Source: Microbacterium sp. CFH 31415 (GTDB taxonomy: Bacteria; Actinomycetota; Actinomycetes; Actinomycetales; Microbacteriaceae). Taken from it: a stretch of DNA of 64,000 nucleotides. The DNA is taken from contig NZ_JAKYXC010000010.1 in the NCBI RefSeq assembly GCF_022538185.1, positions 186,001-250,000 of the forward strand, written 5' to 3'. Under the pieces are notes generated by a model that had not been told where the DNA came from, searched no databases, and saw nothing but the letters and a program-made list of their open reading frames with translations. Shown piece by piece: positions 2,819 through 30,096 of the stretch; within the stretch, counting starts at the first letter, position 1, and every line of letters starts with the position of its first letter. The translations under genes were made by a program, and so were the position numbers.

Positions 2819-3577
2819 TCACTCGGCGCCGGGCGTGCGCGCCTGCCACTCGCCAAAGAGGGTCACGCCGATTCGGCGCGCGGCGGCGGCCACGAGCGGC
2901 CCCACATCCCTTACCGAGAGCGTGCCGCGGCGAGCGACCGACAGCGCCGCCACCGGGCCCGCGGGACCCCTGATCGCCGCGCCGACCGAGCTCACGCCGC
3001 TCGGGCGGACCCCGCCGTCGAAGTGCGCGATGCCGCGGCGGCGCACCTCTGCCAGCTCGATGAACAGCTCCTCGTGCGCCCCCGCGTGGGGCGCGCCGGT
3101 GTGGTCGAGCATCGAGACGATCTCGTCGCGATCCGTCCACGCGAGCATGGCGATCCCGCAGGCCGCCTCCGAGGCGACGATGCGCGTGCCGATCTGCGAG
3201 GGCACCGTGGCCGCCACGCCGCCGCCGATCTTATCGATGTAGTGCACGAACCCCCCGCGCAGCACCGCGAGGTGCGCGACGGATGCTGTCATCGAGGCGA
3301 GCTCGTTGAGCACCGGCGAGGCGTGGGAGCGCAGCTCCTCCAGGTCGGTGGAGGCGCCGCGGTGCACGAGGCGGGGTCCCAGCGTGTAGCCGCCGTGGGC
3401 GTGGTCGACCCAGCCGTGCTCCACGAGCTGCACCAGCATCCGGTGGGTCGTGGACTTCGGCAGGCCCGTCGTCTCTACGACCTCCTCCAGCAGCATGCGC
3501 CCGGGGACCTCCGCCAGGCAGTCCATGATGAGCGTGATGCGCTCCAGCACGCCCGGCCTGCGGGTCGCCTCAGCCAT
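2819..3577 (-). CDS. IclR-family transcriptional regulator
   Basis: A 252-residue regulator with an N-terminal winged helix (residues about 10-65, containing TGLPKSTTHRMLVQL) and a C-terminal IclR effector domain (about 80-245). The start at 3577 is chosen because AGGAGA stands six bases upstream; an in-frame ATG at 3597 lacks such a site and lies inside an inverted repeat that may be the operator. It is divergent from the main catabolic operon beginning at 3687, the usual layout for an IclR protein controlling an aromatic or acyl-CoA pathway. The effector is presumably a pathway acid or CoA ester (inference). Confidence 0.9.
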   Translation of the reverse strand: MAEATRRPGVLERITLIMDCLAEVPGRMLLEEVVETTGLPKSTTHRMLVQLVEHGWVDHAHGGYTLGPRLVHRGASTDLEELRSHASPVLNELASMTASVAHLAVLRGGFVHYIDKIGGGVAATVPSQIGTRIVASEAACGIAMLAWTDRDEIVSMLDHTGAPHAGAHEELFIELAEVRRRGIAHFDGGVRPSGVSSVGAAIRGPAGPVAALSVARRGTLSVRDVGPLVAAAARRIGVTLFGEWQARTPGAE

Positions 3578-3591
3578 CTCGTCTCCTGCGA

Positions 3592-3608
3592 GTCTCATCC
3601 ACTGAGAC
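3592..3608. promoter_or_regulatory. Inverted repeat between iclR and the main operon
   Basis: GTCTCATCCACTGAGAC has perfect six-base arms around a five-base spacer. It lies 15 bases upstream of the regulator start and about 80 bases before the acyl-CoA synthetase. It is a reasonable binding site for the IclR protein encoded next to it. Confidence 0.4.
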
Positions 3609-3686: not shown

Positions 3687-5384
3687 ATGCGGACATTCGC
3701 TGAGGTGGTGCGATCTCGCGCCGGCGACATGCACGAGGGGCTGCGCTTCGAGGGCCGGATCTGGACATGGGCGGAGGTGATCGACGAGGCTGCCGCGCGC
3801 GCCGCCTTCCTGCGGACGCTCGAGCCCGGTGAGGGCCGGAGCCAGGTGCACGTCGGCATCCTGCTGCAGAACGTGCCTGACTTCGTGTTCTGGCTGCTGG
3901 CCGCCGCGCTCTCGGGCTCCGTCGCGGTAGGCGTCAACCCCACGCGCCGCGGCGCCGAGCTGGCGCACGACATCAGTCACTCGGACTGCGACCTGCTCAT
4001 CAGCACGCCGCTGTATCTGGAGGTCGACCGCGACGTCATCCCGCTGCCGGACGACCGCATCCTCGACGTCGAGTCGGAGGAGTACAAGGCGATGTTCGCG
4101 GATGCCGCGGGCACACCGCTGCCCGACGAGATCCCGGGCCCGGGTCTCATGTACCTGCTGCTGTTCAGCTCGGGCTCCACCGGGGCACCGAAGGCCGTCA
4201 TCTGCACGCAGGGACGGCTCGGCCGGCTCACCGAGGCGATGAGCGCCCGCGTCGACCTCCACCGCGAGTCGGTCAACTACATGTGCCTGCCCCTGTTCCA
4301 CGGTCACGCCATCATGATGAACCTCGCGACCGCCGCCGAAGTCGGCGCGACGGTCGTGATGGTGCGCAAGTTCTCGGCGAGCCGGTTCGCGAGCGACATC
4401 CGCGCGCACGGCGTCACCTACTTCAATTACGTGGGCCGTGTGCTCAGCTACGTCCTCGCTCATCCCGAGCGTCCCGAGGACGCCGAAAACAGGCTCGAGG
4501 TGGCGTTCGGCTCGGAGGCTGGACCGGCGGAGGCAGTCGAGTTCCGGCGCCGGTTCGGCTGCGACGTGCGCGAGGGCTACGGAGCGAGCGAAGGCGTCAT
4601 CCGCATCGTGCCCACGCCTGACAGCCCTCCCGGAGCGCTGGGCGTTCCCGTGGCCGGCCTCACGGCGGAGATCCGTCGTGCCGAGGACGACACGGAGTGC
4701 CCGCGCGCGCGGTTCGACGAGCAGGGGCGGCTGCTCAACGCCGAGGAGGCCACCGGCGAGATCGTCGTGATCGGCGCCGGCCCCCGCTTCGAGGGCTACT
4801 ACAAGAACCCCGAGGCGATGGCCGAGCGCCTCCGCTTCGGCGGTCTGGACTTCTGGACGGGTGACCTCGCCTACCGCGACGAGCGGGGGTTCTTCTGGTT
4901 CGCCGGCCGCTCCTCGGACTGGCTGCGCGTGGACGGCGAGAACTTCGGGACCGCGCCCGTGGAGCGCATCATCTCCCGGTTCCCCCCGGTTTCCGGCGCT
5001 CACGCGTACGCCGTCCCCGACCCCCGCAACGGCGATCAGCTCATGGTGGCGATCGTCCTGCACCCTGGCGCGGAGTTCTCCGCCGAGGCGTTCGCGGATT
5101 TCCTTGCGGAGCAGCCGGACCTCGGAACGAAGTGGCGGCCGACGTTCGTCCGCGTGCTGTCTGTCGCCCCGACGACCGCCAACGGGAAGGTTGACAAGGC
5201 TCCCCTCCGCCGGGACGCGTGGGAGGCCGGCGACGTGTGGTGGGCGGCCTCGCGAACGAGCCCCTACGTCCTGCTCGACGACGCGCAGCGCGCGGCGTTC
5301 CGCCAGGACTTCGTCGATGCGGGGCGCGAGAACGCGCTTCCCCAATCCTCGCGCGACATCCTCTGGGCTAAGGCGCCGGCATGA
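3687..5384 (+). CDS. Acyl-CoA synthetase, AMP-binding family (FadD17-like)
   Basis: A 565-residue adenylate-forming ligase that would activate a carboxylic acid with ATP and CoA. The phosphate-binding motif SSGSTGAPK lies near residue 161, GYGASEG near 295, WTGDLAYRD near 390, and the C-terminal catalytic lysine region GKVDKAPLRR near 500. Length and motif spacing suit the FadD17/FATP-like group rather than small acetyl-CoA synthetases. It opens the main island operon, preceded by AGGAGG four bases before the ATG, and its end overlaps the next gene (ATGA at 5381). Downstream genes suggest that it primes a short branched side chain of a larger molecule, but the acid itself cannot be deduced. 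Confidence 0.88.
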   Translation: MRTFAEVVRSRAGDMHEGLRFEGRIWTWAEVIDEAAARAAFLRTLEPGEGRSQVHVGILLQNVPDFVFWLLAAALSGSVAVGVNPTRRGAELAHDISHSDCDLLISTPLYLEVDRDVIPLPDDRILDVESEEYKAMFADAAGTPLPDEIPGPGLMYLLLFSSGSTGAPKAVICTQGRLGRLTEAMSARVDLHRESVNYMCLPLFHGHAIMMNLATAAEVGATVVMVRKFSASRFASDIRAHGVTYFNYVGRVLSYVLAHPERPEDAENRLEVAFGSEAGPAEAVEFRRRFGCDVREGYGASEGVIRIVPTPDSPPGALGVPVAGLTAEIRRAEDDTECPRARFDEQGRLLNAEEATGEIVVIGAGPRFEGYYKNPEAMAERLRFGGLDFWTGDLAYRDERGFFWFAGRSSDWLRVDGENFGTAPVERIISRFPPVSGAHAYAVPDPRNGDQLMVAIVLHPGAEFSAEAFADFLAEQPDLGTKWRPTFVRVLSVAPTTANGKVDKAPLRRDAWEAGDVWWAASRTSPYVLLDDAQRAAFRQDFVDAGRENALPQSSRDILWAKAPA

Positions 5385-5923
5385 TCGACCCCGACGAGCT
5401 CCAGTCGTTCGTCGATCAGATCGCCGAGCCGCCGCGCGTCTCGCGCTACCCCGTCGACGTCGCGATGATCCGCAACTGGGCCGAGGCGCTCGACGACCGG
5501 AACCCGATCTATGTCGACGCCGACGCCGCGCGCGCCACCGGTCGAACCGGCATCGTGGCACCCCCGGCGATGATCTCGACCTGGGTGATGAACGGGTACC
5601 GCCGCTGGCGCGAGATCCAGCGCCTCCGCGCGGAAGGCGCTGCCGAGGACAACGCGTACTCGCAGCTCCTGGCGATCCTGGATGCCGAGGGCTACACCTC
5701 GGTGGTCGCAACCGATGTCGAGCAGACCTACGAGCGCGAGGTCCACCCCGGTGACCGCGTCACCTGCCACTACACGATCGAGGCCGTTGCCGGACCGAAG
5801 CGCACGGCCCTCGGAGAGGGCTGGTTCCTGACACTCGGCAAGCGCTACGAGGACGCCACCGGCGCGGTATTCGCGACCGAGCGCTTCCGCATGCTCCGCT
5901 TCCGCCCCGAGGAGAAGAAATGA
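5381..5923 (+). CDS. MaoC-like hydratase subunit (ChsH2 N-terminal type)
   Basis: A 180-residue hotdog protein of the FAS1-like dehydratase/MaoC N-terminal family. It shows the expected pattern IRNWAEALDDRNPIYVD followed by GIVAPPAMISTW and the domain end EREVHPGDRV. In Mycobacterium the corresponding domain is the first half of ChsH2, which pairs with ChsH1 to hydrate the side-chain enoyl-CoA; there it is fused to a DUF35 domain. Here the DUF35 part is the next gene, joined only by an ATGA overlap. It would form a heteromeric hydratase with the MaoC-like protein at 6330. It lacks an obvious complete D-x4-H hydratase motif, as expected of the partner subunit. Confidence 0.75.
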   Translation: MIDPDELQSFVDQIAEPPRVSRYPVDVAMIRNWAEALDDRNPIYVDADAARATGRTGIVAPPAMISTWVMNGYRRWREIQRLRAEGAAEDNAYSQLLAILDAEGYTSVVATDVEQTYEREVHPGDRVTCHYTIEAVAGPKRTALGEGWFLTLGKRYEDATGAVFATERFRMLRFRPEEKK

Positions 5924-6333
5924 CCACCTCCGTCCCCCACCTGGTCCGCACGCAGGACAACGCGTTCTGGTTCGAGGCCGCAGCGGAAGGGCGCCTCGCT
6001 GTGCAGCGATGCTCGGCCTGCGAGACGCTCCGGCACCCGCCCGCGCCCGCCTGCCCGGAGTGCCACAGCTTCGAATGGGATTCCGTCGACGCTCCCCTGC
6101 ACGGCACCCTCCACTCCTGGACCGTCGTCCACCACCCGAAGGACGGGTCGCTGGCCTACCCGCTCGCCGTCGGCCTCGTCGACCTCGAGACCGGCACGCG
6201 CCTCGTCGCGGACTTCGAGGAGGGCACCGACGTGGATGCCCTTCGGATCGACGCGCCCGTCGACATCGTCTTCGGCGAGCACGCCCACGCCGAGATCCTG
6301 CCACGGCTGCGGCTGAGCGGAGGCCGGTCATGA
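5920..6333 (+). CDS. DUF35 Zn-ribbon/OB-fold protein, aldolase partner
   Basis: A 137-residue DUF35 protein. The N-terminal rubredoxin-like zinc ribbon has its four cysteines as CSAC and CPEC (about residues 31-49), and an OB-fold follows (HGTLHSWTVVH, then PLAVGLVDLETG). In known systems DUF35 proteins bind SCP-x/Ltp2-type thiolases: in mycobacterial ChsH2 this domain is needed for Ltp2 retro-aldolase activity, and in ibuprofen catabolism IpfE partners IpfD. Overlaps on both sides (ATGA) place it between the two hydratase subunits, so hydratase and aldolase may be bridged by a separate adaptor here. It acts in the cytoplasm. Confidence 0.85.
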   Translation: MTTSVPHLVRTQDNAFWFEAAAEGRLAVQRCSACETLRHPPAPACPECHSFEWDSVDAPLHGTLHSWTVVHHPKDGSLAYPLAVGLVDLETGTRLVADFEEGTDVDALRIDAPVDIVFGEHAHAEILPRLRLSGGRS

Positions 6334-6731
6334 CCGCCACCGCAGGTACGTCCCTGCCGGAACTGCGCATCCCTATCGATCGCACGCTCATCGTCGCAGG
6401 CGCCATCGCCTCCCAGGACTTCGAGGATGTCCACCACGACCCCGACGCGGCCCGCCGTCGCGGGGCATCCGACATCTTCATGAGCATCAACACGACCAAC
6501 GGCCTCGTCGACCGCTATCTGACCGACTGTGCCGGACCGGGCGCGCGCCTGCACTCCGTCTCGCTCCGGCTGGGCATGCCGCTCTTCCCGGGCGACATGC
6601 TCGCCTTCACGGGCGAGATCACCGAGCTCCGCGGCGACACCGCGACGGTGACGGTGCGCGGCAGCCACGACCGCGGCATCCATGTGACGGCCACGGCGCG
6701 GATCACCCTGTCAAACGGAGAGGACGCATGA
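6330..6731 (+). CDS. MaoC-like enoyl-CoA hydratase subunit (ChsH1-like)
   Basis: A 133-residue single-hotdog MaoC protein. The segment QDFEDVHHDPDAARRRGA supplies the hydratase Asp30 and His35, with the overhang-like stretch INTTNGLVDRY behind it. Size and motif agree with ChsH1, the catalytic half of the ChsH1-ChsH2 steroid enoyl-CoA hydratase. ATGA overlaps tie it to the DUF35 gene before and the Ltp2-like gene after. The reaction would be syn-hydration of a side-chain enoyl-CoA to a beta-hydroxyacyl-CoA with a tertiary alcohol, the substrate for retro-aldol cleavage. The function is known for the family; the exact substrate is inferred. Confidence 0.78.
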   Translation: MTATAGTSLPELRIPIDRTLIVAGAIASQDFEDVHHDPDAARRRGASDIFMSINTTNGLVDRYLTDCAGPGARLHSVSLRLGMPLFPGDMLAFTGEITELRGDTATVTVRGSHDRGIHVTATARITLSNGEDA

Positions 6732-7912
6732 GCGGATTCAGCGGAAAGGCCGCGATCGCCGGCATCGGCGCGACGGAGTTCTCGAAGGACTCCGGCCGCA
6801 GCGAGTGGCGACTCGCGTGCGAAGCTACCCTCGCGGCACTGGAGGACGCGCAGATCGACGTGGCGGAGGTGGACGGCTTCGCGCTGTTCACGATGGAGAC
6901 CAATCCCGAGATCGCCGTCGCACGCGCGCTCGGCATTCCGGAGCTGACCTTCTTCAGCCGGATCCCTCACGGCGGCGGCGGCGCGTGCGCCCCCGTCCAG
7001 CAGGCGGCGATGGCCGTCGCGAGCGGCGTCGCCGACGTGGTCGTCGTGTACCGCGCGTTCAACGAGCGCTCAGGGCACCGGTTCGGCTCCGGTCCGCCTC
7101 CGTTCGCCTACGCGCAGAACACGGACCAGGAGTACCGCAACTGGATCAACCCGTATGGGCTGCTCACACCGGCATCGCAGGAGGCGCTCCTCGCCCGGAG
7201 GTACATGCACGAGTACGGGGCGACCAGCGAGGACTTCGGGCGGGTATCGGTGCTCTCGCGCAAGCACGCCGCGAACAATCCGAAGGCGTGGTTCTACGAG
7301 CGCCCCATCACGCTCGAGGACCACCAGTCATCGCGCATGATCGCCGACCCGCTGCGCCTGCTCGACTGCTGCCAGGAGACCGACGGCGGTCAGGCGCTCG
7401 TGATCGTCAGCGCCGAGCGGGCACGGGACCTTCCGCACCCGCCCGCCGTCATCACCGCAGCCGCCCAGGGCATCGGTCCGCAGCAGATCTCGATGAGCAG
7501 CTACTACCGCGAGCACATCGACCGGATGCCGGAGGTGGAGCTCGTCGCCCGGCAGCTGTGGTCGCAGGCAGGCCACGGGCCGGACGGTATCGACGCCGCG
7601 ATCCTCTATGACGCGTTCACGCCGATGGTGCTGCTGCAGCTGGAGGAGTACGGGCTGTGCGGTCGCGGCGAGGCCCCCGACTTCATCCGCTCGGGTGCGC
7701 TGGAGCTCGACGGCCGGCTGCCGGTCAACACTCACGGAGGCCAGCTCGGCGAGGGCTACCTGCACGGCGTCAACGGCATCGCCGAGGGCGTGCGCCTCAT
7801 CCGCGGCACGTCCGTCAACCAGCCGCCGAAGGACATCGCCAACGTCCTCGTCACCGGCGGCTCCCCCGTTCCGCACAGCGCGCTCGTGCTGGCCGCCGAC
7901 CACGAAGGCTGA
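6728..7912 (+). CDS. Ltp2-type thiolase-fold aldolase (SCP-x N-terminal family)
   Basis: A 394-residue thiolase-superfamily protein of the lipid-transfer/SCP-x type. Features are the opening KAAIAGIGATEFSKDSG, HGGGGACAPVQQAAMAV near residue 82, and the late glycine-rich segments NTHGGQLGEGYLHG and VTGGSPVPHS. Members beside DUF35 and MaoC genes (Ltp2, IpfD) do not perform classical thiolysis; they cleave beta-hydroxyacyl-CoA by retro-aldol chemistry, releasing propionyl-CoA and a ketone. The gene order here is the same, so this is the likely reaction. The nearby methylcitrate genes are consistent with propionyl-CoA as product. ATGA overlap with the ChsH1-like gene; two bases separate it from the first dehydrogenase. 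Confidence 0.83.
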   Translation: MSGFSGKAAIAGIGATEFSKDSGRSEWRLACEATLAALEDAQIDVAEVDGFALFTMETNPEIAVARALGIPELTFFSRIPHGGGGACAPVQQAAMAVASGVADVVVVYRAFNERSGHRFGSGPPPFAYAQNTDQEYRNWINPYGLLTPASQEALLARRYMHEYGATSEDFGRVSVLSRKHAANNPKAWFYERPITLEDHQSSRMIADPLRLLDCCQETDGGQALVIVSAERARDLPHPPAVITAAAQGIGPQQISMSSYYREHIDRMPEVELVARQLWSQAGHGPDGIDAAILYDAFTPMVLLQLEEYGLCGRGEAPDFIRSGALELDGRLPVNTHGGQLGEGYLHGVNGIAEGVRLIRGTSVNQPPKDIANVLVTGGSPVPHSALVLAADHEG

Positions 7913-7914
7913 TC

Positions 7915-9111
7915 ATGCATCCCGACCTGTCTCCCGAGTCCAAGGCGCTGCGGCGGGAGCTGCGCGCCTATTTCGCCGAGATCATCAGCGATGAGGACCG
8001 CCGCGAGCTCATGCACCAGACCGAGGGGGGCCCGACGTTCGACCGGATCCTGCGGCGCATGGGCGCCGACGGGTGGCTCGGCCTCGGCTGGCCGACCGAG
8101 TACGGCGGCCGCGGCGTCGATCCCGAGGCACAGTACGTGTTCTACGACGAGGTCATCCGTGCCGGGGCGCCGCTGTCGCTCGTGTCGCTGAACACCGTGG
8201 CCCCTGCGCTCATGCGCGACGGCTCTGAGGAGCAGAAGCGGTTCTTCCTGCCGAAGATCCTCACCGGCGAGCTGATGTTCGCGATCGGCTACACGGAGCC
8301 GAGCGCGGGCACCGACCTCGCGTCGCTGCGCACGAGCGCCCGCATCGAGGGCGACGAGTTCGTCATCAACGGCAACAAGATCTTCACGAGCGCCGGCGTC
8401 TACGCCGATTGGATCTGGCTCGCCGTGCGCACCGACCCCGATGCACCTGCGCACAAGGGCATCAGCGTCGTGCTGGTGCCGACGACGACGCCGGGCTTCT
8501 CGGTCACCGAGATCCACACGGTCGGCGGCATCAGCACGTCGGCCACCTACTACGAGAACGTACGGGTGCCGCTCACGAACCTCGTCGGCGAGCTCAACGG
8601 CGGCTGGAGCCTGATCACCAATCAGCTCAACCACGAGCGTGTGGCGCTCGCCGCACGTGGCGGCATCGGCAACGAGCTGTTCGATGCCGCAAGCGAGTGG
8701 GCGCGCACCACGTCGTTCGGCCCCGGCGTCGTCGCCGACATCCCCTGGGTGCAGTCCACGCTCGGCGAGGCGTACGCGCTGCTGTCGGCCTCCGACCTCA
8801 TCAACCTGCGACTCGTCGCCGACATCTCCGCGAACACGCTCACCGGCGGCGACTCGTCGGCGGCGAAGGTGGTCGGCACCGAGACGGTGGTCGAGGTCTA
8901 CGGCATGTTGCAGGAGGTGCTCGGCGTGGCCGGACTGCTCCGCCCCGACAGCGAGGGTGCGGTGGCCGCGGGCCGCATCGAGACGCTCGCGCGCCGCGCG
9001 CAGAACAACACGTTCGGAGGCGGGACGAACGAGGTGATGCGCGACCTCGTCGCCGCGAAGACCCTCGGCATGACGCTCGCGCCCCGCCGCAGCGACAGGA
9101 AGGCTCAGTGA
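7915..9111 (+). CDS. Acyl-CoA dehydrogenase, catalytic subunit type (FadE29/ChsE2-like)
   Basis: A 398-residue flavin-dependent acyl-CoA dehydrogenase. The FAD-contact segment GYTEPSAGTDLASLR, the middle domain INGNKIFTSAG and the C-terminal helix with FGGGTNEVMRD are all present. The classical base of the YEGT motif is replaced by Gly, but Glu241 in LNHERVALAARGG sits at the isovaleryl-CoA dehydrogenase position and can be the base. The next gene is a second, shorter dehydrogenase without that Glu, so they probably form an alpha2-beta2 enzyme as ChsE1-ChsE2 do. It would introduce the double bond that the MaoC pair hydrates. Its stop codon overlaps the ATG of the next gene. Confidence 0.88.
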   Translation: MHPDLSPESKALRRELRAYFAEIISDEDRRELMHQTEGGPTFDRILRRMGADGWLGLGWPTEYGGRGVDPEAQYVFYDEVIRAGAPLSLVSLNTVAPALMRDGSEEQKRFFLPKILTGELMFAIGYTEPSAGTDLASLRTSARIEGDEFVINGNKIFTSAGVYADWIWLAVRTDPDAPAHKGISVVLVPTTTPGFSVTEIHTVGGISTSATYYENVRVPLTNLVGELNGGWSLITNQLNHERVALAARGGIGNELFDAASEWARTTSFGPGVVADIPWVQSTLGEAYALLSASDLINLRLVADISANTLTGGDSSAAKVVGTETVVEVYGMLQEVLGVAGLLRPDSEGAVAAGRIETLARRAQNNTFGGGTNEVMRDLVAAKTLGMTLAPRRSDRKAQ

Positions 9112-10232
9112 TGGACTTCGAGTATCCGGAGGACGTGCGCGAGGCCCAGTCCCTCGCCGACGACGTGTTCGCAGGCCTCGCCGGCGTGGAGCGGGTCAAG
9201 CATGTGGAGAACGAAGGAGGCGGGTTCGATGAGGAGCTGTGGGCAGCCGTCGTCGAGACGGGCCTGCTCGGCTTGGCGATCCCTGAGGAGCACGGTGGAG
9301 CCGGCCTCGGCATGCTGGGACTGACCGCGGTGCTCGAACGACACGGCCGCTACGTCGCCCCCATCCCGCTCGCCGCCTCCGTCAGCATGGCGCTCCTGCC
9401 GCTGTCCCGCTTCGGCACAGCAGCCCTGCGCGACCGATGGATGCCGGCGGCGCTTGCCGGCGATGTCCTCCTCACGAGCGGAATCGACGCCGCGACCACG
9501 GGCGACGCGGCGCTGAGCAGCACACCCGACGGCGACGGCTGGCGCCTCACCGGGACGCTCGAGGCGGTGCCCGCCGGAACGCAGGCAGCCGGCATCCTCG
9601 TCGCGTTCACGGGCGAGGGCGCCGTGCGCGCAGCGATCGTGCCCCTCGATCGAGACGGCATCAGCCGCGCATCCGTTGCCGTCACGTCGCGCGCGGCCCA
9701 TGCCCGCGTGTCGTTCGACGAGGTCCGGGTGGAAGCCGGCGACCTGCTCGGCGACGACGCCGAGCCCGTTCGGTGGGCACGCGCTGCCGGGCGCGTCGCC
9801 TACGCCGCCCTCCAGGTGGGTGTATGCGAAGAGGCCATCGCGCGCGCGGCCGCGTACACCAGTCAGCGCGAGCAGTTCGGCCGGCCGCTGTCGACGAACC
9901 AGGCGGTGACGCAGCGCGCCGCGGACGCCCACATGGACGCCGAGCGCATCAAGGTCACCACCCGCCGCGCGGCGTGGCTCGTCGACCGCGACGATCCCGC
10001 GGCGGCTTCGGCGGTGCTCGTCTCGGCGTGGTGGGCGTCCAAGGGCGGACTGCGCGCGGTGCACGCCACGCAGCACCTCCACGGCGGGCTGGGCGCGGAC
10101 ATCGAGTACCCCATCCACCGCTACTTCCTGTGGGGACGCCAGCTGGCGTTCTCGCTCGGCACCGCCGCATCACTCAGCGCCGAACTCGGCGCAGACCTCG
10201 CCTCGCTTCCTCGGATCGGAGCCCCCGCATGA
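9111..10232 (+). CDS. Acyl-CoA dehydrogenase, partner subunit type (FadE28/ChsE1-like)
   Basis: A 373-residue acyl-CoA dehydrogenase. The N-terminal helical domain carries AIPEEHGGAGLGMLGL, the central beta domain is shortened, and the C-terminal domain has TSQREQFGRPL and HLHGGLGADIEYPIHRY. At the helix where the catalytic Glu would lie it reads AGRVAYAALQVG, so no base is evident, while the Arg and Gly-rich FAD-contact segments are kept. This division suits a heteromeric dehydrogenase with the preceding gene, sharing FAD between subunits. The ATG overlaps the TGA of that gene by one base, giving tight translational coupling. Cytoplasmic. Confidence 0.87.
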   Translation: MDFEYPEDVREAQSLADDVFAGLAGVERVKHVENEGGGFDEELWAAVVETGLLGLAIPEEHGGAGLGMLGLTAVLERHGRYVAPIPLAASVSMALLPLSRFGTAALRDRWMPAALAGDVLLTSGIDAATTGDAALSSTPDGDGWRLTGTLEAVPAGTQAAGILVAFTGEGAVRAAIVPLDRDGISRASVAVTSRAAHARVSFDEVRVEAGDLLGDDAEPVRWARAAGRVAYAALQVGVCEEAIARAAAYTSQREQFGRPLSTNQAVTQRAADAHMDAERIKVTTRRAAWLVDRDDPAAASAVLVSAWWASKGGLRAVHATQHLHGGLGADIEYPIHRYFLWGRQLAFSLGTAASLSAELGADLASLPRIGAPA

Positions 10233-11155
10233 CACACCCCACGCCCCGCCTCGCCATCGTCACCGGAGCCAGCCGCGGGCTCGGCCGCGCATTCGCCCGT
10301 CGCCTCGCAGCGGAGGGCATCGCGGTCGCCGCGGTCTCCCGCACTCTCCGGTCGGGCGACGGCGCCCTCGAGGGCTCACTCGAGGAGACCGTCGACCTGA
10401 TCCGCGCCGACGGCGGACGGGCGCGGGCCTACGCCGTCGACCTCGGCGACCCCGACCTGGACCGCGCCGAGCTGGTGACCCGCATCGAAGCGGACTTCGG
10501 CCTCACTGTCGACGCCCTCGTCAACAACGCCGCGGCCGCCCGCCGGTACGACGTGCTGTTCTCCGACATGCGCCGCGAATGGTTCCAGGACTCCATCGAG
10601 ACGAACGTGTGGAATGCGTGGGATCTCGCCGCCGCCGTCATCCCCGGCATGCGCCGCCGCGGCGCCGGCTGGATCGTGAACATCTCCTCCCGCCAGGCCG
10701 GCCCGCGCGTCGGCCCGCCGTTCGCCCCCCACCCGCTCGCGGGTTCGGTGCTCTACGGAGGCACGAAGGCGATGATCGATCGCATGAGCACGGGCGCGGC
10801 GATGGAGCTGTACGAGGACAACATCGCCGTCAACTCCCTCGCGCCGAACCGAGGCGTCGCGACGGCGCACGCCGCCCAGGCCGTCCCCGGCTGGCCGTCC
10901 GAACCCGAGGAGACGATGGCGGAGGCAGCCCTCGCCCTCGTGACCGGCGACCCGAAGGTCCTGACCGGCCGCATCGCCTACAGCCTGCCGCTGCTGAAGG
11001 AGCTCGACCGCCCCGTCCACACGGTGGACGGCCGCGAGCTGGTGCCCGGCTGGCAGCCCGCGGACATGGACGCGAGCACCTTTCTAGGTCACTACCTGAC
11101 CTTCGCGCCGCCCGGCGCCATTCCCAAGGCGCTGCTTGAGGGAGCCTCCCGGTGA
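10229..11155 (+). CDS. Short-chain dehydrogenase/reductase (SDR)
   Basis: A 308-residue SDR with TGASRGLGRAF near residue 12, NNAAAARRYD in the middle, and an intact SSRQ...YGGTK catalytic set (Ser, Tyr-x3-Lys). It is longer than classical SDRs of about 250 residues; the extra C-terminal part (LLKELDRPVHTVDGREL onward) has no domain I recognise. ATGA overlap with the upstream dehydrogenase and GTGA overlap with the next SDR keep it in the main operon. It could oxidise a hydroxyl on the substrate core or reduce the ketone released by the aldolase. Start choice rests on the overlap. Confidence 0.85.
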   Translation: MTHPTPRLAIVTGASRGLGRAFARRLAAEGIAVAAVSRTLRSGDGALEGSLEETVDLIRADGGRARAYAVDLGDPDLDRAELVTRIEADFGLTVDALVNNAAAARRYDVLFSDMRREWFQDSIETNVWNAWDLAAAVIPGMRRRGAGWIVNISSRQAGPRVGPPFAPHPLAGSVLYGGTKAMIDRMSTGAAMELYEDNIAVNSLAPNRGVATAHAAQAVPGWPSEPEETMAEAALALVTGDPKVLTGRIAYSLPLLKELDRPVHTVDGRELVPGWQPADMDASTFLGHYLTFAPPGAIPKALLEGASR

Positions 11156-12045
11156 CCGGCGACGTCCGGCTCCCCGACGCCGTCGGACTCGACGGCCGGA
11201 CAGCCCTCGTCACCGGCGGAGGCAACGGCATGGGGCTCGCCACCGCCCTCCTGCTCGCCGACGCCGGATGCGACGTCTCGATCGTCGACGTGGATGCCGC
11301 GGCCGCCGAGGCCGCCGCCGAGCAGGTGCGCTCGCGCGGCCGGCGCGCCGCCGCGATCACGGCTGACATGAGCACGACGGAGGCGCCCGCGCGCGCCGTC
11401 GCCGAGACGGTCGACGCCCTCGGTGAACTCAGCGTCGCCGTGAACTTCGCGGGTGGCACGGCGGGCGTCATGAAGCCCTTCCTCGACATCACCCCGGAGG
11501 AGTGGCAGCGCCCTCTCGCCCTCAACCTCACTTCCACGCTCCTGTCGTGCCAAGCGCAGGCACTGTCGATGATCCGCGGCGGCCGGGGCGGCACGATCGT
11601 GACGGTCGGCTCGTCCAGCGGCATCACCGCCGCGCCGAACCTCGCCGGCTACGGTGCGGCGAACGCCGCCGTCATCCACCTCACCAAGACGATGGCGCTG
11701 GAGCTGGCGCCGTACGACATTCGCGTCAACTGCCTCGTTCCCGGGACCCACTGGTCAGCGGGAACGCGGCATCGCGCCACGAGCCCGGACTCCCCTCCCG
11801 GCACGCGCGAGTTCTTCCAGACGGCCGAGCGGGTCACGCCCCTCGGCCACCTCGGCGAGCCCGCGGAGACAGCAGGCGTCGCCCTGTTCCTCGCGTCGGA
11901 GCTGTCGCGCTACATGACGGGACACCATGTGGTCTCGGACGGCGGCATCCTCCACACCACCGCGCGACCGGCCTTCGGCGCGCCTCGCACCCCGGACGCA
12001 GTGACGGCGGCGCTGGGCGCTGTGAAGGAGGAGAACGATGAGTGA
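11152..12045 (+). CDS. SDR-family protein with altered catalytic Lys
   Basis: A 297-residue SDR-fold protein starting at GTG 11152 (GTGA overlap). The cofactor motif TGGGNGMGLATALLL and the later VNFAGG, VGSSSG and NCLVPGT segments are standard. In the active site, however, Tyr167 is followed four residues later by Asn171 (YGAAN) rather than Lys. Loss of this Lys usually abolishes or strongly lowers dehydrogenase activity, so it may be a binding partner of the preceding SDR, or use another residue. The reading frame is otherwise intact and the C-terminal VSDGG motif is kept. The last eight bases overlap the amidohydrolase gene. Confidence 0.8.
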   Translation: MTGDVRLPDAVGLDGRTALVTGGGNGMGLATALLLADAGCDVSIVDVDAAAAEAAAEQVRSRGRRAAAITADMSTTEAPARAVAETVDALGELSVAVNFAGGTAGVMKPFLDITPEEWQRPLALNLTSTLLSCQAQALSMIRGGRGGTIVTVGSSSGITAAPNLAGYGAANAAVIHLTKTMALELAPYDIRVNCLVPGTHWSAGTRHRATSPDSPPGTREFFQTAERVTPLGHLGEPAETAGVALFLASELSRYMTGHHVVSDGGILHTTARPAFGAPRTPDAVTAALGAVKEENDE

Positions 12046-13030
12046 CCTGCGCATCATCGACATGCACGCGCACGTGCAGCGCAGCGACGCGCACGGGCAC
12101 GAGATCCGCGACTACTTCCTGGGGCCCGCCCTGGTGAAGCCGGGCGCGCCGAACCTCGGAACCGTCGACGAGGTACGCGAGATGATGGCGGCCACCGGCA
12201 TCTCCGAGGTCAACATGCTCCAGTTCACGTGGAGCGGCCGCTACCTCCGCCACGGGCGCTACACGCTGCCCGACGACCCCGCGGATGCCGCGGCCGGGGA
12301 GGAAGAACTGCGTCGACGCGCCGCGCGTCGGGCATCGGACAACAACGCCTGGGCCGCCTCCGTGCACGCCGAGGACGCGCGCTTCACGTTCTTCGCGGGT
12401 GTGAACCCGGTCGTGATGGGGGCCGAGGGCGCAGCCGAGGAAGCGCGCAGGCGTGTCGCCCAGGGCGCGCTGGGCATCAAGATCGTGCCTAGCGACATGG
12501 GCATCTCGGGCGACGACACACTGCTGTTCCCGCTGTACGAATACTGCGTCGAGGCCGGCGTACCGGTGCTGACCGAGACGGGCGGCCACAGCCCGCACTG
12601 CCAACCGGCACCGTTCGGCGCCGCTCTGGGGGCGTTCCCTGGTCTGCGGATCGTCTTCGCGCACTGCGGTCACGACCGCGAGCTGGGCGGCGCGCTCGAC
12701 CAGGAGGTGCTGGAGCTCGCTGCCCGCCACGAGGGCGTCTACGGCGACACGTCACTGCGCCTGCACGAGGTCGCCGACGGGACAGTCAGCGCGGATGACA
12801 TGGTGCGTTTCCTGCGTCGTATCGGGTTCGACCGGCTGATGTTCGGCTCCAACTACATCTTCTGCGACGTCCTCCCCACCCGGCCCGGTCACGTCGCGGC
12901 GCCGGACCACGTCGACCCGCGGTTCACGCAGGTCTGGAAGTCGGTGCAGGTCCTGCGCACGCTGCCGGTCGGCGACGACGAGCGTGAGCGTCTCGCGTCC
13001 GGCACCTTCCTCGAGCTCACTCGATCCTGA
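12038..13030 (+). CDS. Amidohydrolase-2 family protein (ACMSD-like fold)
   Basis: A 330-residue TIM-barrel metal hydrolase or decarboxylase relative. The N-terminal metal pair is present as DMHAHV (His10, His12), the central strand ends in VFAHCGHD, and YGDTS is as in ACMSD-type proteins. At the fourth-metal/catalytic position these proteins normally have GSDxP; here it is GSNYIF (Asn272). The start ATG at 12038 follows GGAGGAG. Relatives decarboxylate aromatic acids or hydrolyse ring-fission products, so this could act on a ring-cleavage product late in the pathway, but the changed Asp makes this unsure. Last gene of the main operon; a strong terminator follows. Confidence 0.75.
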   Translation: MSDLRIIDMHAHVQRSDAHGHEIRDYFLGPALVKPGAPNLGTVDEVREMMAATGISEVNMLQFTWSGRYLRHGRYTLPDDPADAAAGEEELRRRAARRASDNNAWAASVHAEDARFTFFAGVNPVVMGAEGAAEEARRRVAQGALGIKIVPSDMGISGDDTLLFPLYEYCVEAGVPVLTETGGHSPHCQPAPFGAALGAFPGLRIVFAHCGHDRELGGALDQEVLELAARHEGVYGDTSLRLHEVADGTVSADDMVRFLRRIGFDRLMFGSNYIFCDVLPTRPGHVAAPDHVDPRFTQVWKSVQVLRTLPVGDDERERLASGTFLELTRS

Positions 13031-18375: not shown

Positions 18376-19338
18376 ATGGACGAGACGCAGCGCATGCTGG
18401 ACCTGCTGAACTCCACTTTCCCCGACCTTGCCTCCATGTCGCCCCGCGAGGCACGGGAAGCCGCGGACGCGCGGGTTCGTCCCGCCCCGAACCCCGAAGA
18501 CGTGGCGGCCACCGACGACCAGGTCCTGTCCGCCGACGGTCATGACGTGACCATCCGGATCTACCACCCGCACGACCGCGACCCGGGGATGCCCCTGACT
18601 GTCTACGCGCACGGCGGTGGTTTCCTCCACGGCTCGATCGCCAGCCACGACAGCTTCTGCCGCCGCTGGGCGAAGGGAACCGGGTCCACCGTCGCGTCGG
18701 TGGAGTACCGGCTGGCGCCGGAGCACCGGCCCGCGGATGCTGCCGCCGATGTCGCCGCCGCGGCGCGGTGGGCAGCCGCCCTCTCGCCCACGGGGACGGT
18801 CCTGCTCGCCGGAGACAGCGCCGGCGCGACCGCCGCCGCCCAGGCCTCGCTCGTGCTCGCAAAGGATCCGGTCGGGATCCTCGCCGGACAGGTGATCGCC
18901 TATCCCATGCTCGACCCGGAGTGCGCGTCGGAGTCCCATCGGACGCGCGCCACCGGGTACTTCGTCACGCACCGCCAGATCCGCTACTACTGGGACACCG
19001 CACTCACGGGCGGCACGCCCTCCGGCGAGGACACCCCGTGGCTCGCAGACAGCCTTCCGACCCTCCCCGCCACGATCGTGGTCATCGGCGGGCTGGACGT
19101 CCTCTCCGACGAGGGACGGGAGTACGCCTCACGGCTGCGTGCGGCCGACACGCCTGTCATCCTGCGCGACTACCCCGATCAGTTCCACGGCTTCCTCACG
19201 ATGCCCGGATACGGACCAGGCGAGTCCGCCCGCGAGCTGCTCTGGTCCGACATCCGGGCGACGTTCTCCACCGCGCGGGCCGCGGACCCGGCAACCACTT
19301 CACCCACCGAACTCGCACACGAAGGAGTGTCCTCATGA
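18376..19338 (+). CDS. Alpha/beta-hydrolase, hormone-sensitive-lipase family esterase
   Basis: A 320-residue alpha/beta hydrolase. The oxyanion motif HGGGF is near residue 79, the nucleophile elbow GDSAG near 154, and the late Asp (GGLDVLSD) and His (DQFHGF) complete the triad expected of the HSL family. It would hydrolyse a carboxylic ester. Its ATG follows GAAGGA and its last codons overlap the Baeyer-Villiger monooxygenase start (ATGA). The pairing of monooxygenase and esterase is a common way to cleave a ketone: oxidation to an ester or lactone and then hydrolysis. The PadR gene divergent from it is the likely regulator. Confidence 0.88.
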   Translation: MDETQRMLDLLNSTFPDLASMSPREAREAADARVRPAPNPEDVAATDDQVLSADGHDVTIRIYHPHDRDPGMPLTVYAHGGGFLHGSIASHDSFCRRWAKGTGSTVASVEYRLAPEHRPADAAADVAAAARWAAALSPTGTVLLAGDSAGATAAAQASLVLAKDPVGILAGQVIAYPMLDPECASESHRTRATGYFVTHRQIRYYWDTALTGGTPSGEDTPWLADSLPTLPATIVVIGGLDVLSDEGREYASRLRAADTPVILRDYPDQFHGFLTMPGYGPGESARELLWSDIRATFSTARAADPATTSPTELAHEGVSS

Positions 19339-20933
19339 CCCACGACGCCGACATCATCGTCGTCGGTGCCGGACTCGCTGGCATCTACACCAGCATCCAC
19401 GCCGACCGTGCCGGCCTGAGCATCATCGGCTTCGATGCCGCAGGCGACGTGGGAGGCACCTGGTACTGGAACCGCTACCCGGGAGCCCGCTGCGACGTCG
19501 AGAGCATCGACTACTCATTCTCGTTCGACCCGGAGCTCGAGCAGGAGTGGCGGTGGACGGAGCGCTACGCGGCTCAGCCCGAGATCCTCGCGTATCTCAA
19601 CCACGTCGCCGACCGATACGACGTGCGCCGCCACTTCACGTTCGGCCGGCGCGTCGCCTCAGCCGACTGGGACGAGGCCACGCAGCGCTGGACCGTGCGC
19701 ACACACGAGGGCGACGAGGCCCGTGCACGCTGGGTGATCATGGCGAGCGGCTGCCTCTCGGCCCCGCATCTGCCCGCCATCCCCGGCCGGGACGACTTCG
19801 CCGGCGAGGTGTATATGACCGCGGCCTGGCCTCACGAGAAGGTGGACTTCACCGGCAAGCGCGTCGCACTCATCGGCACGGGCTCCTCGGGCATACAGTC
19901 ATTGCCCCTCATCGCCGATGAGGCGGCCGAAGTGGTCGTGTACCAGCGCTCGGCGAACTACTCCGTCCCGGCCTCCAATCGCACGCTGTCCGATGAGGAC
20001 TGGAAGCACGCGCTGAGCGAATATCCCGAGCGTCGCCGGAAGTCCTGGAACGGGCTCGCCGGCTCGCCATGGGGCAGCAACCCGACGCGCTACCAGGACA
20101 CCCCCGAAGAGGAGCGCGACGCGATCTTCGAGGAGAGCTGGGAGCGTGGCGGCGTGCTGTTCTCCAAGGCGTTCCCGGGGCAGATGGTCGACCGCGAGAC
20201 CAACGAGGCGGCACGCCTCTTCTTCGAGAGAAAGCTCGCCGAGAAGGTGAAGGACCCGCAGGTCCTGGTCGACCTCACACCGACGGACCACGCGATCGGC
20301 ACCAAGCGCATCTGCACGGACACGGGCTACTACGAGACGTTCAACCGGGAGAACGTGACGCTGGTCAACCTGCGTCGCGAGCCCATTCTCAAGATCACGG
20401 CCGAGGGGGTCACCACGGAGTCCGGAGCGCGCCGGTTCGACGCGATCGTCTATGCGACCGGCTTCGACGCCATGACGGGGGCGCTCACCTCGATCGACAT
20501 CCGCGGCCGCGACGGGCGGCTGCTGCGCGACGAGTGGGCCGGCGGACCGTCGACCTTCCTCGGCTTCGGCATCCCCGGCTTCCCGAACCTGCTGTCACTC
20601 AACGGCCCGGGCTGCCCGAGCGTGCTGTCGAATATGGCGCTCGGGTCGGAGCAGCAGGGCGACTTCGCCCTGAGGCTGATCCAGCACTGCGACGCCCAGG
20701 GGTACACATCAGCCGAAGCCCGCGCGGACGCTGCGGCCGCGTGGACGGCGCACTCGCAGGAGCTGGCCGAAGCGACCCTCTTCGCTGAGGCGCCGAGCTG
20801 GTACATGGGCGCCAACATCGAGGGCAAGGCGCGGACGTTCCTCCCGTACCTCGGCGGATTCCGGCCATACATCGAGCGCTGCGAGGAAGTCGTGGATGCC
20901 GGGTACCGCGGGTTCGTGCTGAGTTCTCGCTGA
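19335..20933 (+). CDS. Flavin-dependent Baeyer-Villiger monooxygenase-like protein
   Basis: A 532-residue class B flavin monooxygenase. The FAD Rossmann motif GAGLAG begins the protein, followed by the cyclohexanone-monooxygenase hallmark GGTWYWNRYPGARCD, a second dinucleotide motif GTGSSG for NADPH near residue 180, and the ATGFD motif. The Baeyer-Villiger fingerprint FxGxxxHxxxWP is present as FAGEVYMTAAWP, with Met161 in place of the conserved His. The enzyme would insert oxygen next to a ketone. ATGA overlap with the esterase couples the two. Possible substrates include the ketone released by the Ltp2-like aldolase (inference). The changed His leaves its rate or reaction type uncertain. 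Confidence 0.87.
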   Translation: MTHDADIIVVGAGLAGIYTSIHADRAGLSIIGFDAAGDVGGTWYWNRYPGARCDVESIDYSFSFDPELEQEWRWTERYAAQPEILAYLNHVADRYDVRRHFTFGRRVASADWDEATQRWTVRTHEGDEARARWVIMASGCLSAPHLPAIPGRDDFAGEVYMTAAWPHEKVDFTGKRVALIGTGSSGIQSLPLIADEAAEVVVYQRSANYSVPASNRTLSDEDWKHALSEYPERRRKSWNGLAGSPWGSNPTRYQDTPEEERDAIFEESWERGGVLFSKAFPGQMVDRETNEAARLFFERKLAEKVKDPQVLVDLTPTDHAIGTKRICTDTGYYETFNRENVTLVNLRREPILKITAEGVTTESGARRFDAIVYATGFDAMTGALTSIDIRGRDGRLLRDEWAGGPSTFLGFGIPGFPNLLSLNGPGCPSVLSNMALGSEQQGDFALRLIQHCDAQGYTSAEARADAAAAWTAHSQELAEATLFAEAPSWYMGANIEGKARTFLPYLGGFRPYIERCEEVVDAGYRGFVLSSR

Positions 20934-25824: not shown

Positions 25825-26295
25825 TCAGCGGCGGTCGAACAGGCGCGGCACGCCGCGGCTACCGTCGAGGAGCGCGTTCGTGCGGCGGCGCACCCGCCAG
25901 CCGCCGTGGCCGCGCTCGAGCTCCCAGCGGTTGGCGGACAGCCGCTCTACGCGCCAGCTCTCACCGCTGCGCAGAACCAGCATCGAGTGGTTGACGGCGA
26001 CCGCCGAGTCGCCGTCGATCTCAACCCGTGGGCTCGTGAGAATGTGTCCGCATCCCGCCTCGACGTAGGCGCGATGGCCGGGCAGGTCGACCAGCTGTGC
26101 GACCTCCTGCCCCTCGAGCGTCACGGAGTCGAATGCGTATGCCCCGTCCTCCGCCCACAGCTCGGCGAGCGACTGGCCGTCGAGGGAGTCGACCGCCGGA
26201 CCGTAGCGCGAGACGAGGTCGATTATCGCCAGGCGATCCTCCACCGCGCGCAGGCGCGCCTCGAGGTCGGCCATCCGCTCCTCGCCCACGCTCAC
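25825..26295 (-). CDS. SnoaL-like (NTF2-fold) protein
   Basis: A 156-residue SnoaL-like protein with a coiled opening (MADLEARLRAVEDRLAI) leading into DLVSRYGPAVDSLDGQ, then LAELWAEDGAYAFD and the barrel strand SWRVERLSANRWEL. It resembles SnoaL_4-type proteins found near ring-modifying enzymes. The GTG at 26295 overlaps the stop of the preceding gene (GTGA); an ATG at 26274 with GAGGAG close by is an alternative seven codons in. Transcribed with the EthD-like gene under operator candidate 7. Function unknown; no catalytic residues can be named. Confidence 0.7.
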   Translation of the reverse strand: MSVGEERMADLEARLRAVEDRLAIIDLVSRYGPAVDSLDGQSLAELWAEDGAYAFDSVTLEGQEVAQLVDLPGHRAYVEAGCGHILTSPRVEIDGDSAVAVNHSMLVLRSGESWRVERLSANRWELERGHGGWRVRRRTNALLDGSRGVPRLFDRR

Positions 26296-27065
26296 CAGTC
26301 CTGCCATGGGTTGATCGTTGTGAGCGGACCGGACATCAGCACTTCCTCTGCCGTGGAGGCCTCCGGGTCGGCCGCGGCATCCAGCTGTTGCGTCGTCCGC
26401 GCGATCTCGGATGACGCCTCCAGGGGGTCGCCGTCGAGGTAGGCGAGCCGGATGCGCAGCGACTGCGGGACGATGGTGTCGTCGCCCGCGAGGGGCAGCG
26501 ACGAGTGCTGCTGGGGGAACGCGAAGGAAAAAGTCCACGCGCCGGCGACGCCGTCCAGGCGCAGCAGCTCCGGAATGAGCTCGCGGTCCTCCCACCGGAA
26601 CCGCTCGTGGGCGGCCAGGCCGTGGTGATCCGCGTAGCGGCTCATCGTGAAGTGGATGCCGCGGTTGGGCCTGAACGGCAGCACCTCGGCACCTACGCCG
26701 ATGCGCGGCGCCGCATGGCCCGCCACCGGCCGGAAGAAGCCGAGGAACGGACGGCTGACGCCGGGGATGATGGGGCCGCGCCCCCACTGGAACGAGTCCT
26801 CTCCCAACCTGGTCCAGGCCCTCACGCTCTCGTCGACCGGCTGCCGGAACCAGTACATCGCGACGTAGTCGACGCCGGCGAACTCCGCGGACGCCGACCC
26901 GTGATCCTTCAGGCCGTCACGCCGCGCCCACCGGTCACCCCAGGCGACGCCCGGGAGGGCGAGGTTCTCGGGCCGGTGATCCAGCTGGTGCCACTCGTTG
27001 TAGGCACGGTGGACCGTCGGGTCCGTGAGCTCCACGAACGAGAAGAATGCGAGGTCTGCGAACAT
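26292..27065 (-). CDS. Uncharacterised EthD-like/dimeric alpha-beta barrel protein
   Basis: A 257-residue protein I cannot name with certainty. The N-terminal segment FFSFVELTDPTVHRAYNEWH and LDHRPENLALPGVAWGDRW resembles EthD-type dimeric alpha/beta barrels, in which a His in the H(A/R)P segment is conserved, and a second similar unit seems to follow (RGIHFTMSRY to RELIPELLRLDGVAGAW). It may therefore be a tandem of two ferredoxin-like repeats. The ATG at 27065 follows GGGGAG. The best-supported context is the island regulon: operator candidate 7 begins 17 bases upstream. A role as a small accessory or decarboxylase-like enzyme is speculation. Confidence 0.6.
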   Translation of the reverse strand: MFADLAFFSFVELTDPTVHRAYNEWHQLDHRPENLALPGVAWGDRWARRDGLKDHGSASAEFAGVDYVAMYWFRQPVDESVRAWTRLGEDSFQWGRGPIIPGVSRPFLGFFRPVAGHAAPRIGVGAEVLPFRPNRGIHFTMSRYADHHGLAAHERFRWEDRELIPELLRLDGVAGAWTFSFAFPQQHSSLPLAGDDTIVPQSLRIRLAYLDGDPLEASSEIARTTQQLDAAADPEASTAEEVLMSGPLTTINPWQDW

Positions 27066-30073: not shown

Positions 30074-30096
30074 GACTGCTCCTTCGGGTCAGTGAC

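Follow-up and report, generated by a model that had tools for sequence, protein, structure and literature searches.

The enzyme sets close to the locus described here include those of the mycobacterial igr operon (cholesterol) and the Rhodococcus cas operon (cholate). The igr set comprises ChsE1-E2, ChsH1-H2 and Ltp2 and is accompanied by cyp125, and the cas set (CasI-L-M-N-O-P) includes a ligase, CasI. In mycobacteria, a MaoC and a DUF35 domain are fused in the single protein ChsH2. In the consulted parts of the literature, the DUF35 domain links the hydratase to the aldolase in the systems studied, and this coupling is thought to help against an unfavourable hydration equilibrium. Here we describe a locus of Microbacterium sp. 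CFH 31415 in which the two parts of ChsH2 are encoded by separate genes. The locus occupies positions 3687-10232 of a 64,000-nucleotide stretch (the window), which corresponds to bases 186001-250000 of a 267.5-kb contig (NZ_JAKYXC010000010.1, here C15) in a genome of 3.46 Mb and 21 contigs that is rated 100% complete.

In Comamonas the natural genes of the ChsH2/Ltp2 system (ORF40-44) are also fused. Both activities were nevertheless reported, in the part of the study available, for a mutant of strain TA441 expressing ChsH2-MaoC and ChsH2-DUF35 separately (PMC12502768). A natural split of ChsH2 was not found in the listed titles or abstract openings of papers on Ltp2, ChsH2, DUF35 and the cas genes. 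Pimelobacter (Nocardioides) simplex VKM Ac-2033D, a strain other than the one in our sample (L072), has been described to possess an igr-type operon under KstR, in connection with phytosterol (PMC7807495), and a separate cluster E that is induced by lithocholate (PMC7593942); the consulted parts of these two papers do not describe split-type genes. Sixteen genera of actinobacteria are named in a survey of steroid-degrading bacteria from 2016; the part available contains no word beginning with "Microbacter", and a stand-alone DUF35 may already be drawn in its figure (PMC4810484).

Gene content and predicted reactions of the module

The locus consists of seven plus-strand genes. A gene for an acyl-CoA synthetase (ACS, 3687-5384) is followed by genes for a ChsH2-type MaoC protein, the hydratase binding subunit, without DUF35 domain (5381-5923; 4WNB_A, E 8.4e-35; 4W78_A, E 7.9e-35), a stand-alone ChsH2-type DUF35 protein with a four-Cys Zn ribbon and an OB fold (5920-6333; PF12172 and PF01796; 6OK1_B, E 2.8e-32), a ChsH1-type catalytic MaoC subunit (6330-6731; 4WNB_B, E 1.9e-32, with DF.DVHHD aligned), an Ltp2-type, thiolase-like aldolase (6728-7912) and two acyl-CoA dehydrogenase (ACAD) subunits. 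The latter are of ChsE1 type (7915-9111; 425.7 bits to Tcur3483, 6WY8_B, and 384.3 to 4X28_A) and ChsE2 type (9111-10232; 252.3 bits to Tcur3481, 6WY8_A, and 183.9 to 4X28_D). Four consecutive junctions (5381, 5920, 6330 and 6728) are ATGA overlaps. The ATG at 3687 of the ACS gene is preceded by a GAGGAGG ribosome site, whereas the gene caller chose 3729 as its start.

A preliminary description, made from the window sequence, had listed a heteromeric acyl-CoA dehydrogenase, a MaoC pair, a DUF35 protein and an Ltp2 aldolase, with ChsH2 divided between genes at 5381 and 5920 joined by ATGA. Open reading frames (ORFs) and gene calls place all of these genes where it had put them, and the two parts of ChsH2 are indeed separate ORFs with an ATGA overlap. 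For each protein, where a solved match was found, the best one is the corresponding steroid subunit, which bears out the parts list and supports the prediction of a heteromeric MaoC pair (ChsH1/ChsH2) and a heteromeric dehydrogenase pair (ChsE1/ChsE2). Grouping of the thiolase with classical degradative thiolases, and of the MaoC proteins with unrelated dehydratases, had been named as the result that would refute the description. Instead, the aldolase fits Ltp2 far better than other thiolases and the MaoC pair fits ChsH1/ChsH2.

The aldolase scores 557.9 bits against Ltp2 of Thermomonospora curvata (6OK1_A), the next best solved structure reaching 166.8 bits, and it passes NF005892 of NCBIfam (PRK07855, "lipid-transfer protein") with 648.2 bits against a cut-off of 469; we take this model to represent the Ltp2-type family. 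The DUF35 protein reaches 115 bits against the ChsH2-DUF35 of the same structure, and 31.6 against the next best. The scores against the chain pair 9MYR, presumably Sal/Shy, were far lower in both searches (147.1 and 29.1 bits). The T. curvata structures 6OK1 and 6WY8 are thus the best solved matches for the aldolase, the DUF35 protein and both dehydrogenase subunits; the locus departs from the T. curvata system in giving DUF35 a gene of its own. The ligase is nearest to the CasI (steroid-22-oyl-CoA synthetase) family among the NCBIfam models, yet far under its cut-off (NF052587, 580.9 against 900 bits); a search of solved structures gave no relative of it at E<=1e-40.

We consider it likely that these genes form a complete module by which a steroid loses the propanoyl (C3) side chain at its C17, that the module belongs to a split-type lineage and that its steroid class is not the usual one. 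The CasI-like ligase would convert a C22 steroid acid to its CoA ester, ChsE1-ChsE2 would introduce a C17-C20 double bond, and the MaoC pair would hydrate it to give a 17-hydroxyl. Ltp2, shaped by the separate DUF35 protein, would then cleave the product in a retro-aldol reaction, yielding a 17-ketosteroid and propionyl-CoA, and the latter could be burned by the methylcitrate enzymes. Since DUF35 is a free subunit, coupled only through an ATGA overlap, the hydratase and the aldolase need not share one complex. Such a split is workable, since both activities were seen with the separated parts from Comamonas TA441. These reactions, and the substrate, are what we infer from the gene content, clade, residues and neighbours observed.

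Distribution of the split and the aldolase active site

A scan of named genomes gave at least 576 confirmed relatives; the best 80 were kept, and shares among these are not population frequencies. At E<=1e-100 the aldolase was found only in this genome among 299 sampled of its family, and at 1e-60 in 40 of 396 genomes of a phylum sample. Fourteen of the best 80 loci encode aldolases that are 85–89% identical to that of the window. Their hosts are Nocardioides, Amycolatopsis, Rhodococcus, Pimelobacter, Arthrobacter and a Propionibacterium metagenome-assembled genome (MAG). MaoC and DUF35 are separate genes in all 14, and the start of DUF35 overlaps or abuts the stop of MaoC. As this junction is found in every one of the clade relatives, the split is real and not a frameshift or sequencing artefact; nor is it unique to this genome.

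ChsH2 is fused in 57 of the best 80 loci and split in 15 (the 14 above and Nocardioides litoris), one (Lentzea albidocapillata, L074) has DUF35 alone ahead of the aldolase gene and seven were undecided. The fused loci comprise 29 in cas order and 28 in igr order, terms that here denote only a gene-length or a short gap, respectively, between the ChsH2/DUF35 gene and ChsH1. Judging from their order and the gene names in the consulted parts of PMC12502768 and PMC7807495, the cas-order loci would be cas operons, and as all 29 are fused, the split is not general in such operons. In a separate set of 29 loci, fusion could be judged in nine, all of them fused; the other 20 are on the minus strand or gave no match in the 1.5-kb flank.

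The relationships of 110 aldolases were estimated by a quick maximum-likelihood tree with Shimodaira-Hasegawa-like approximate likelihood ratio (SH-aLRT) supports and without bootstrap; the placement of long end branches, including L074, L076 and L121, is unsure. The window and the 14 split loci are on one side of a branch with a support of 98. This clade adjoins Lentzea (99); Dactylosporangium and Enemella follow (100), and after them a mostly cas-order group, with the mycobacterial sequences on the far side. The split clade is therefore nearer to the cas-order operons than to mycobacterial igr, which the preliminary description had used for comparison; tree and gene order point to the split-type clade itself as the nearest kin. 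The locus shares with igr the same set of enzymes, and with cas the ligase gene in the operon, a four-Cys DUF35 protein and a neighbouring branch of the Ltp2 tree. It differs from both by the separate DUF35 gene and from cas by a ligase under the CasI cut-off. The split-type lineage is separate from igr and cas, and little noticed. In Arthrobacter APC 3897 the operon has the same order as in the window.

A single change on the tree accounts for the split in the window and the 14 loci. Nocardioides litoris falls among the igr-type sequences and the tree requires two changes in all, so the split of ChsH2 probably arose twice. This apparently separate split (L121:8640-9529) has an igr-type background and keeps the YDHF motif discussed below. 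In Lentzea albidocapillata (L074:9576-11170), the genes for DUF35 and Ltp2 form a pair that is not directly preceded by a MaoC gene; the same locus holds another, fused module, and the DUF35 gene by the matched Ltp2 stands alone. Split and fused modules occur together in three genomes: Rhodococcus globerulus (L069 and L080), Rhodococcus IEGM 1379 (L068 and L083) and the Propionibacterium MAG (L067 and L105). This co-occurrence argues that the split-type module serves a distinct steroid class.

The four Cys of DUF35 are visible in the alignment. A simple four-Cys pattern is kept in 15/15 split and 29/29 cas-order loci, whereas 22 of the 28 igr-order fused loci do not match it. When the MaoC and DUF35 proteins of the window are joined and aligned, the break falls at the variable-length linker of the fused proteins.

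In Ltp2 of T. curvata (TcLtp2), Tyr294 and Tyr344 have been described as base and acid and His296, within the YDHF motif, as the residue of the oxyanion hole; replacement of His296 caused an approximately 14-fold loss of efficiency, according to the part of the report available (PMC12329534). Both Tyr residues are found at the same numbers in the window aldolase and are present in all 110 aligned Ltp2 rows, among which TcLtp2 itself is absent. Position 296 differs: the motif reads YDAF, with Ala296, in all 15 split-clade rows, as opposed to YDHF in 91 of the 95 others (Ala in three, Pro in one). Furthermore, all 15 split-clade rows have His at position 383, which belongs to the C-terminal loop, and all 95 others have Thr. 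A stretch within 123-141, where a loop of TcLtp2 helps to wall the active site, is nearly fixed in the split clade and differs elsewhere. The Lentzea aldolase has Ala296 and keeps Thr383, as if the change to Ala296 had preceded His383, and may resemble an intermediate of the split clade. We speculate that His383 takes over from His296. The substitution at the oxyanion hole and the different loop region suggest that another steroid class is acted upon.

Steroid genes and other neighbours of the module

The contig also carries a HIP-type (C/D-ring) gene cluster, about 14–32 kb upstream of the ligase gene. EchA20 (420.4 against a cut-off of 260), FadA6 (696.8 against 591) and IpdF (408 against 336) pass their models, and a FadD3-like ligase is just under its cut-off (624.4 against 657). 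The CoA-transferase pair IpdAB and the FMN enzyme IpdC are recognised solely from their Pfam families and the order of the genes. The cluster further holds dehydrogenases, a TetR regulator and, by eye, a second CoA-transferase-like pair; one of the dehydrogenases matches the IpdE2 model under its cut-off (223.4 against 450). The orders echA20-ipdA-ipdB-ipdC and fadA6-ipdF-ACAD agree with the KstR2 (HIP) gene table in the consulted part of PMC5380842. The HIP (KstR2-type) C/D-ring set of EchA20, IpdAB, IpdC, IpdF, FadA6 and FadD3 thus appears to be present in the host.

Within the window, a Baeyer-Villiger monooxygenase (BVMO, 19335-20933, plus strand) is closer to the steroid monooxygenase (STMO) 4AOS (630.2 bits), its nearest solved relative, than to PAMO (530.0 bits). 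The 4AOS enzyme presumably acts on the progesterone side chain, and the STMO-like BVMO suggests that intact C21 steroids are also handled. Homologues (53–54%) are located 2–5 kb from a KshA match in the genomes of five relatives, and in Pimelobacter simplex a distance of 2.3 kb separates a 58% homologue from a match to an extradiol dioxygenase. The BVMO does not mark genomes without KshA: at 1e-130 it was found in 0 of 3 such genomes, as against 11 of 14 others. Its gene has a 4-base overlap with that of an HSL-type alpha/beta hydrolase (18376-19338, plus strand; PF07859; LipP1 224.6 against a cut-off of 350). On the minus strand, a methylcitrate operon prpC-prpB-prpD (28883-32522; PRK14033 609.9 against 479, prpB 398.5 against 354.4, PrpD 864.1, below its cut-off of 950) could serve as a sink for the propionyl-CoA expected from the aldolase reaction.

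The enzymes that open the A and B rings were searched for in the whole host genome. KshA_C gave no match there, 16 of 19 relatives being positive, among them all 12 of the named split-clade genomes searched (L067 and L068 were left out). KstD was not found in the host at 1e-10, with a PRK07843-type query whose own score is over the cut-off for 3-oxosteroid 1-dehydrogenase (990.6 against 788); eight of nine others match, Dactylosporangium weakly. A candidate for the canonical KstD at C7:101741 was rejected, as the protein is PRK12834 (934.4 bits). With TIGR03213 as a stand-in for the HsaC-type dioxygenase, the best host score was 68.2 bits, against 302–401 in seven of nine others, three of them over the cut-off. 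Three HsaC candidates were discarded: one on C11 (244.5 on catechol 2,3-dioxygenase, cut-off 320.2), one on C20 that is HpaD-like by neighbours and sequence as judged by eye, and one at C10:271927, also by eye. The preliminary description had noted no sterol-ring gene in the window. This agrees with the searches as far as the canonical nucleus-opening enzymes are concerned, but the window contains the STMO-like BVMO, and C/D-ring genes are located upstream on the contig. Its statement that cyp125 is missing, in which the locus differs from igr, extends to the whole genome: no full-length cytochrome P450 was found, and one partial match (L176; 30.9 bits, over the cut-off) covers model positions 323-424.

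Enemella dayhoffiae resembles the host: its fused module is followed by homologues of EchA20, IpdF, IpdC and IpdAB, no KshA or KstD match was found, and its best HsaC-type score is 119.8 bits. In the other two relatives without KshA, Microbispora has a KstD match and no strong HsaC-type match, and Dactylosporangium has an HsaC-type match. The host and Enemella would either take over partly degraded steroids or open the A/B rings by non-canonical enzymes.

As to the immediate surroundings of the module, the operon probably extends to 13030 through three same-strand genes with overlapping starts, encoding two short-chain dehydrogenases/reductases (SDRs; 10229-11155 and 11152-12045; the former adh_short, both by Pfam) and an amidohydrolase-2 family protein (12038-13030; PF04909). 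A gene 72–73% identical to the first SDR occurs in four split-type loci (L065, L068, L069 and L071). Upstream, an IclR-family regulator (2819-3577, minus strand; IclR_C/HTH_IclR) is divergently encoded; a 54% identical copy adjoins the same operon in Arthrobacter APC 3897, and 40–41% identical copies adjoin the ACS gene in two Rhodococcus. The gap between the IclR and ACS genes contains a perfect inverted repeat, GTCTCA-5-TGAGAC (3592-3608), which is a candidate operator only (one match in the window against 0.15 expected, with up to one mismatch); a search of six relative loci did not find it. A promoter and terminator scan gave no result above chance, and the base composition of the cluster is unremarkable.

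Several other genes were noted. Thiolase, SDR and ACAD genes flank the split-type loci L062, L066, L070 and L072 (for example, a 741-aa ACAD at L072:13105-15330) and could pre-shorten a longer side chain; the operon of the window is without them. In Rhodococcus, an RfbH-like pyridoxal phosphate enzyme gene (L064:11203-12408; 255.3 bits, cut-off 423) directly follows the split-type aldolase, and by eye L068 and L071 have similar genes. A protein without Pfam hit recurs with the split-type aldolase (window 26292-27065, minus strand; L063:5165-5932; L074:11167-11880); in Lentzea the gene as called overlaps that of the aldolase, and the structure of the protein, predicted from three sequences, has a mean pLDDT of 33.1. 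A flavin reductase and a luciferase-like monooxygenase (L034:14330-16746; C15:180330-182746), candidates for ring chemistry, are encoded between the HIP cluster and the window. Four SnoaL_4 proteins are found in about 37 kb of the contig (window 14557-15012 and 25825-26307; L034:9638-10656), a fold shared by bile-acid dehydratases. An MFE-2-type hydratase and an SDR are located upstream of the HIP genes (C15:155440-157127), and an ORF of 2226 aa (window 38670-45350) has a start that by eye resembles a signal peptide.

Substrate and significance of the split-type module

Most likely the module still acts on a steroid, and the class is most likely one that already bears a carboxyl side chain. 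The preliminary description had suggested that the module was reused for another substrate. For a different steroid this is plausible in view of the three genomes with both module types and the altered loop and active site, whereas reuse for a non-steroid is not supported, given the HIP cluster on the same contig, the STMO-like BVMO and the lack of Rieske matches on the contig. We regard it as very improbable that the module was recruited for a non-steroid such as a terpenoid acid or, by analogy with ipf, a 2-arylpropionate. It is true that no full-length P450 was found and that other thiolase-DUF35 pairs, benzoylsuccinyl-CoA thiolase and PhlB, act on non-steroids, but the scores given above clearly favour the steroid Ltp2 and ChsH2. 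The ibuprofen proteins IpfD/IpfE are likewise an Ltp2-like aldolase with a DUF35 partner; the ipf system needs a Rieske dioxygenase, encoded beside the aldolase, and is set apart by gene content, the host genome having five Rieske matches and none on this contig. An ordinary cas/igr enzyme set, in which the split is neutral and the substrate is the C22-CoA intermediate of cholesterol or cholate, would account for the shared enzymes and for the clade adjoining cas-order operons, and the split alone does not abolish activity in the Comamonas experiment, as far as the consulted part of that study goes (PMC12502768). We nevertheless hold this to be unlikely: the genomes with both types of module suggest different jobs, and the aldolase shows fixed differences in the active site and in the loop.

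Several points weigh against a complete split-type module for another steroid class, which remains our preferred reading. His296, the loss of which is costly in the consulted account of TcLtp2 (PMC12329534), is gone from the split clade; the ligase score is well under the CasI cut-off; a ligase of C24 type was not recognised, the upstream FadD3-like enzyme reaching 312.5 on CasG against a cut-off of 750; and the tree was made quickly, with no bootstrap, and long end branches in it (L074, L076 and L121 among them) were flagged. Furthermore, canonical KstD, KshA and the HsaC-type dioxygenase were not found in the host genome, which leaves the nucleus without a known route before the C/D stage. 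The host could be a scavenger that takes up steroid remnants, the A/B rings of which have been degraded by other bacteria and the C17 side chain retained, and finishes them with the HIP enzymes. The gene complement of the host and the similar combination in Enemella dayhoffiae fit such a life, and release and cross-feeding of intermediates between bile-acid-degrading bacteria are described in the part of PMC8399759 consulted. This is improbable in our view, as KshA in all 12 split-clade genomes tested indicates that the clade as a whole needs no ring-opened substrate, and the STMO-like BVMO suggests that intact C21 steroids are handled too. There is also a small chance that the A/B rings are opened by an undescribed route without KshA, KstD and HsaC, encoded in and beside the window, that would take an intact steroid to the HIP stage, with the split Ltp2 module as its side-chain arm and Enemella dayhoffiae, with its fused module, as a second case. 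The BVMO, two old yellow enzyme (OYE)-type reductases, several SDRs, the SnoaL-like proteins and the luciferase-like monooxygenase with its flavin reductase would be the candidates.

A lineage in which ChsH2 is cut at exactly the joint between hydratase and aldolase is a natural test of how important their coupling is. A clade of aldolases without the oxyanion-hole His, and with another His in the C-terminal loop, amounts to a testable prediction about the active site, and the split-clade aldolase may be a biocatalyst with a new steroid range. The organism itself has genes for the side chain and for the C/D rings, but the known A/B-ring enzymes were not found in its genome, and the question arises whether it is a scavenger or has a new way of opening the rings.

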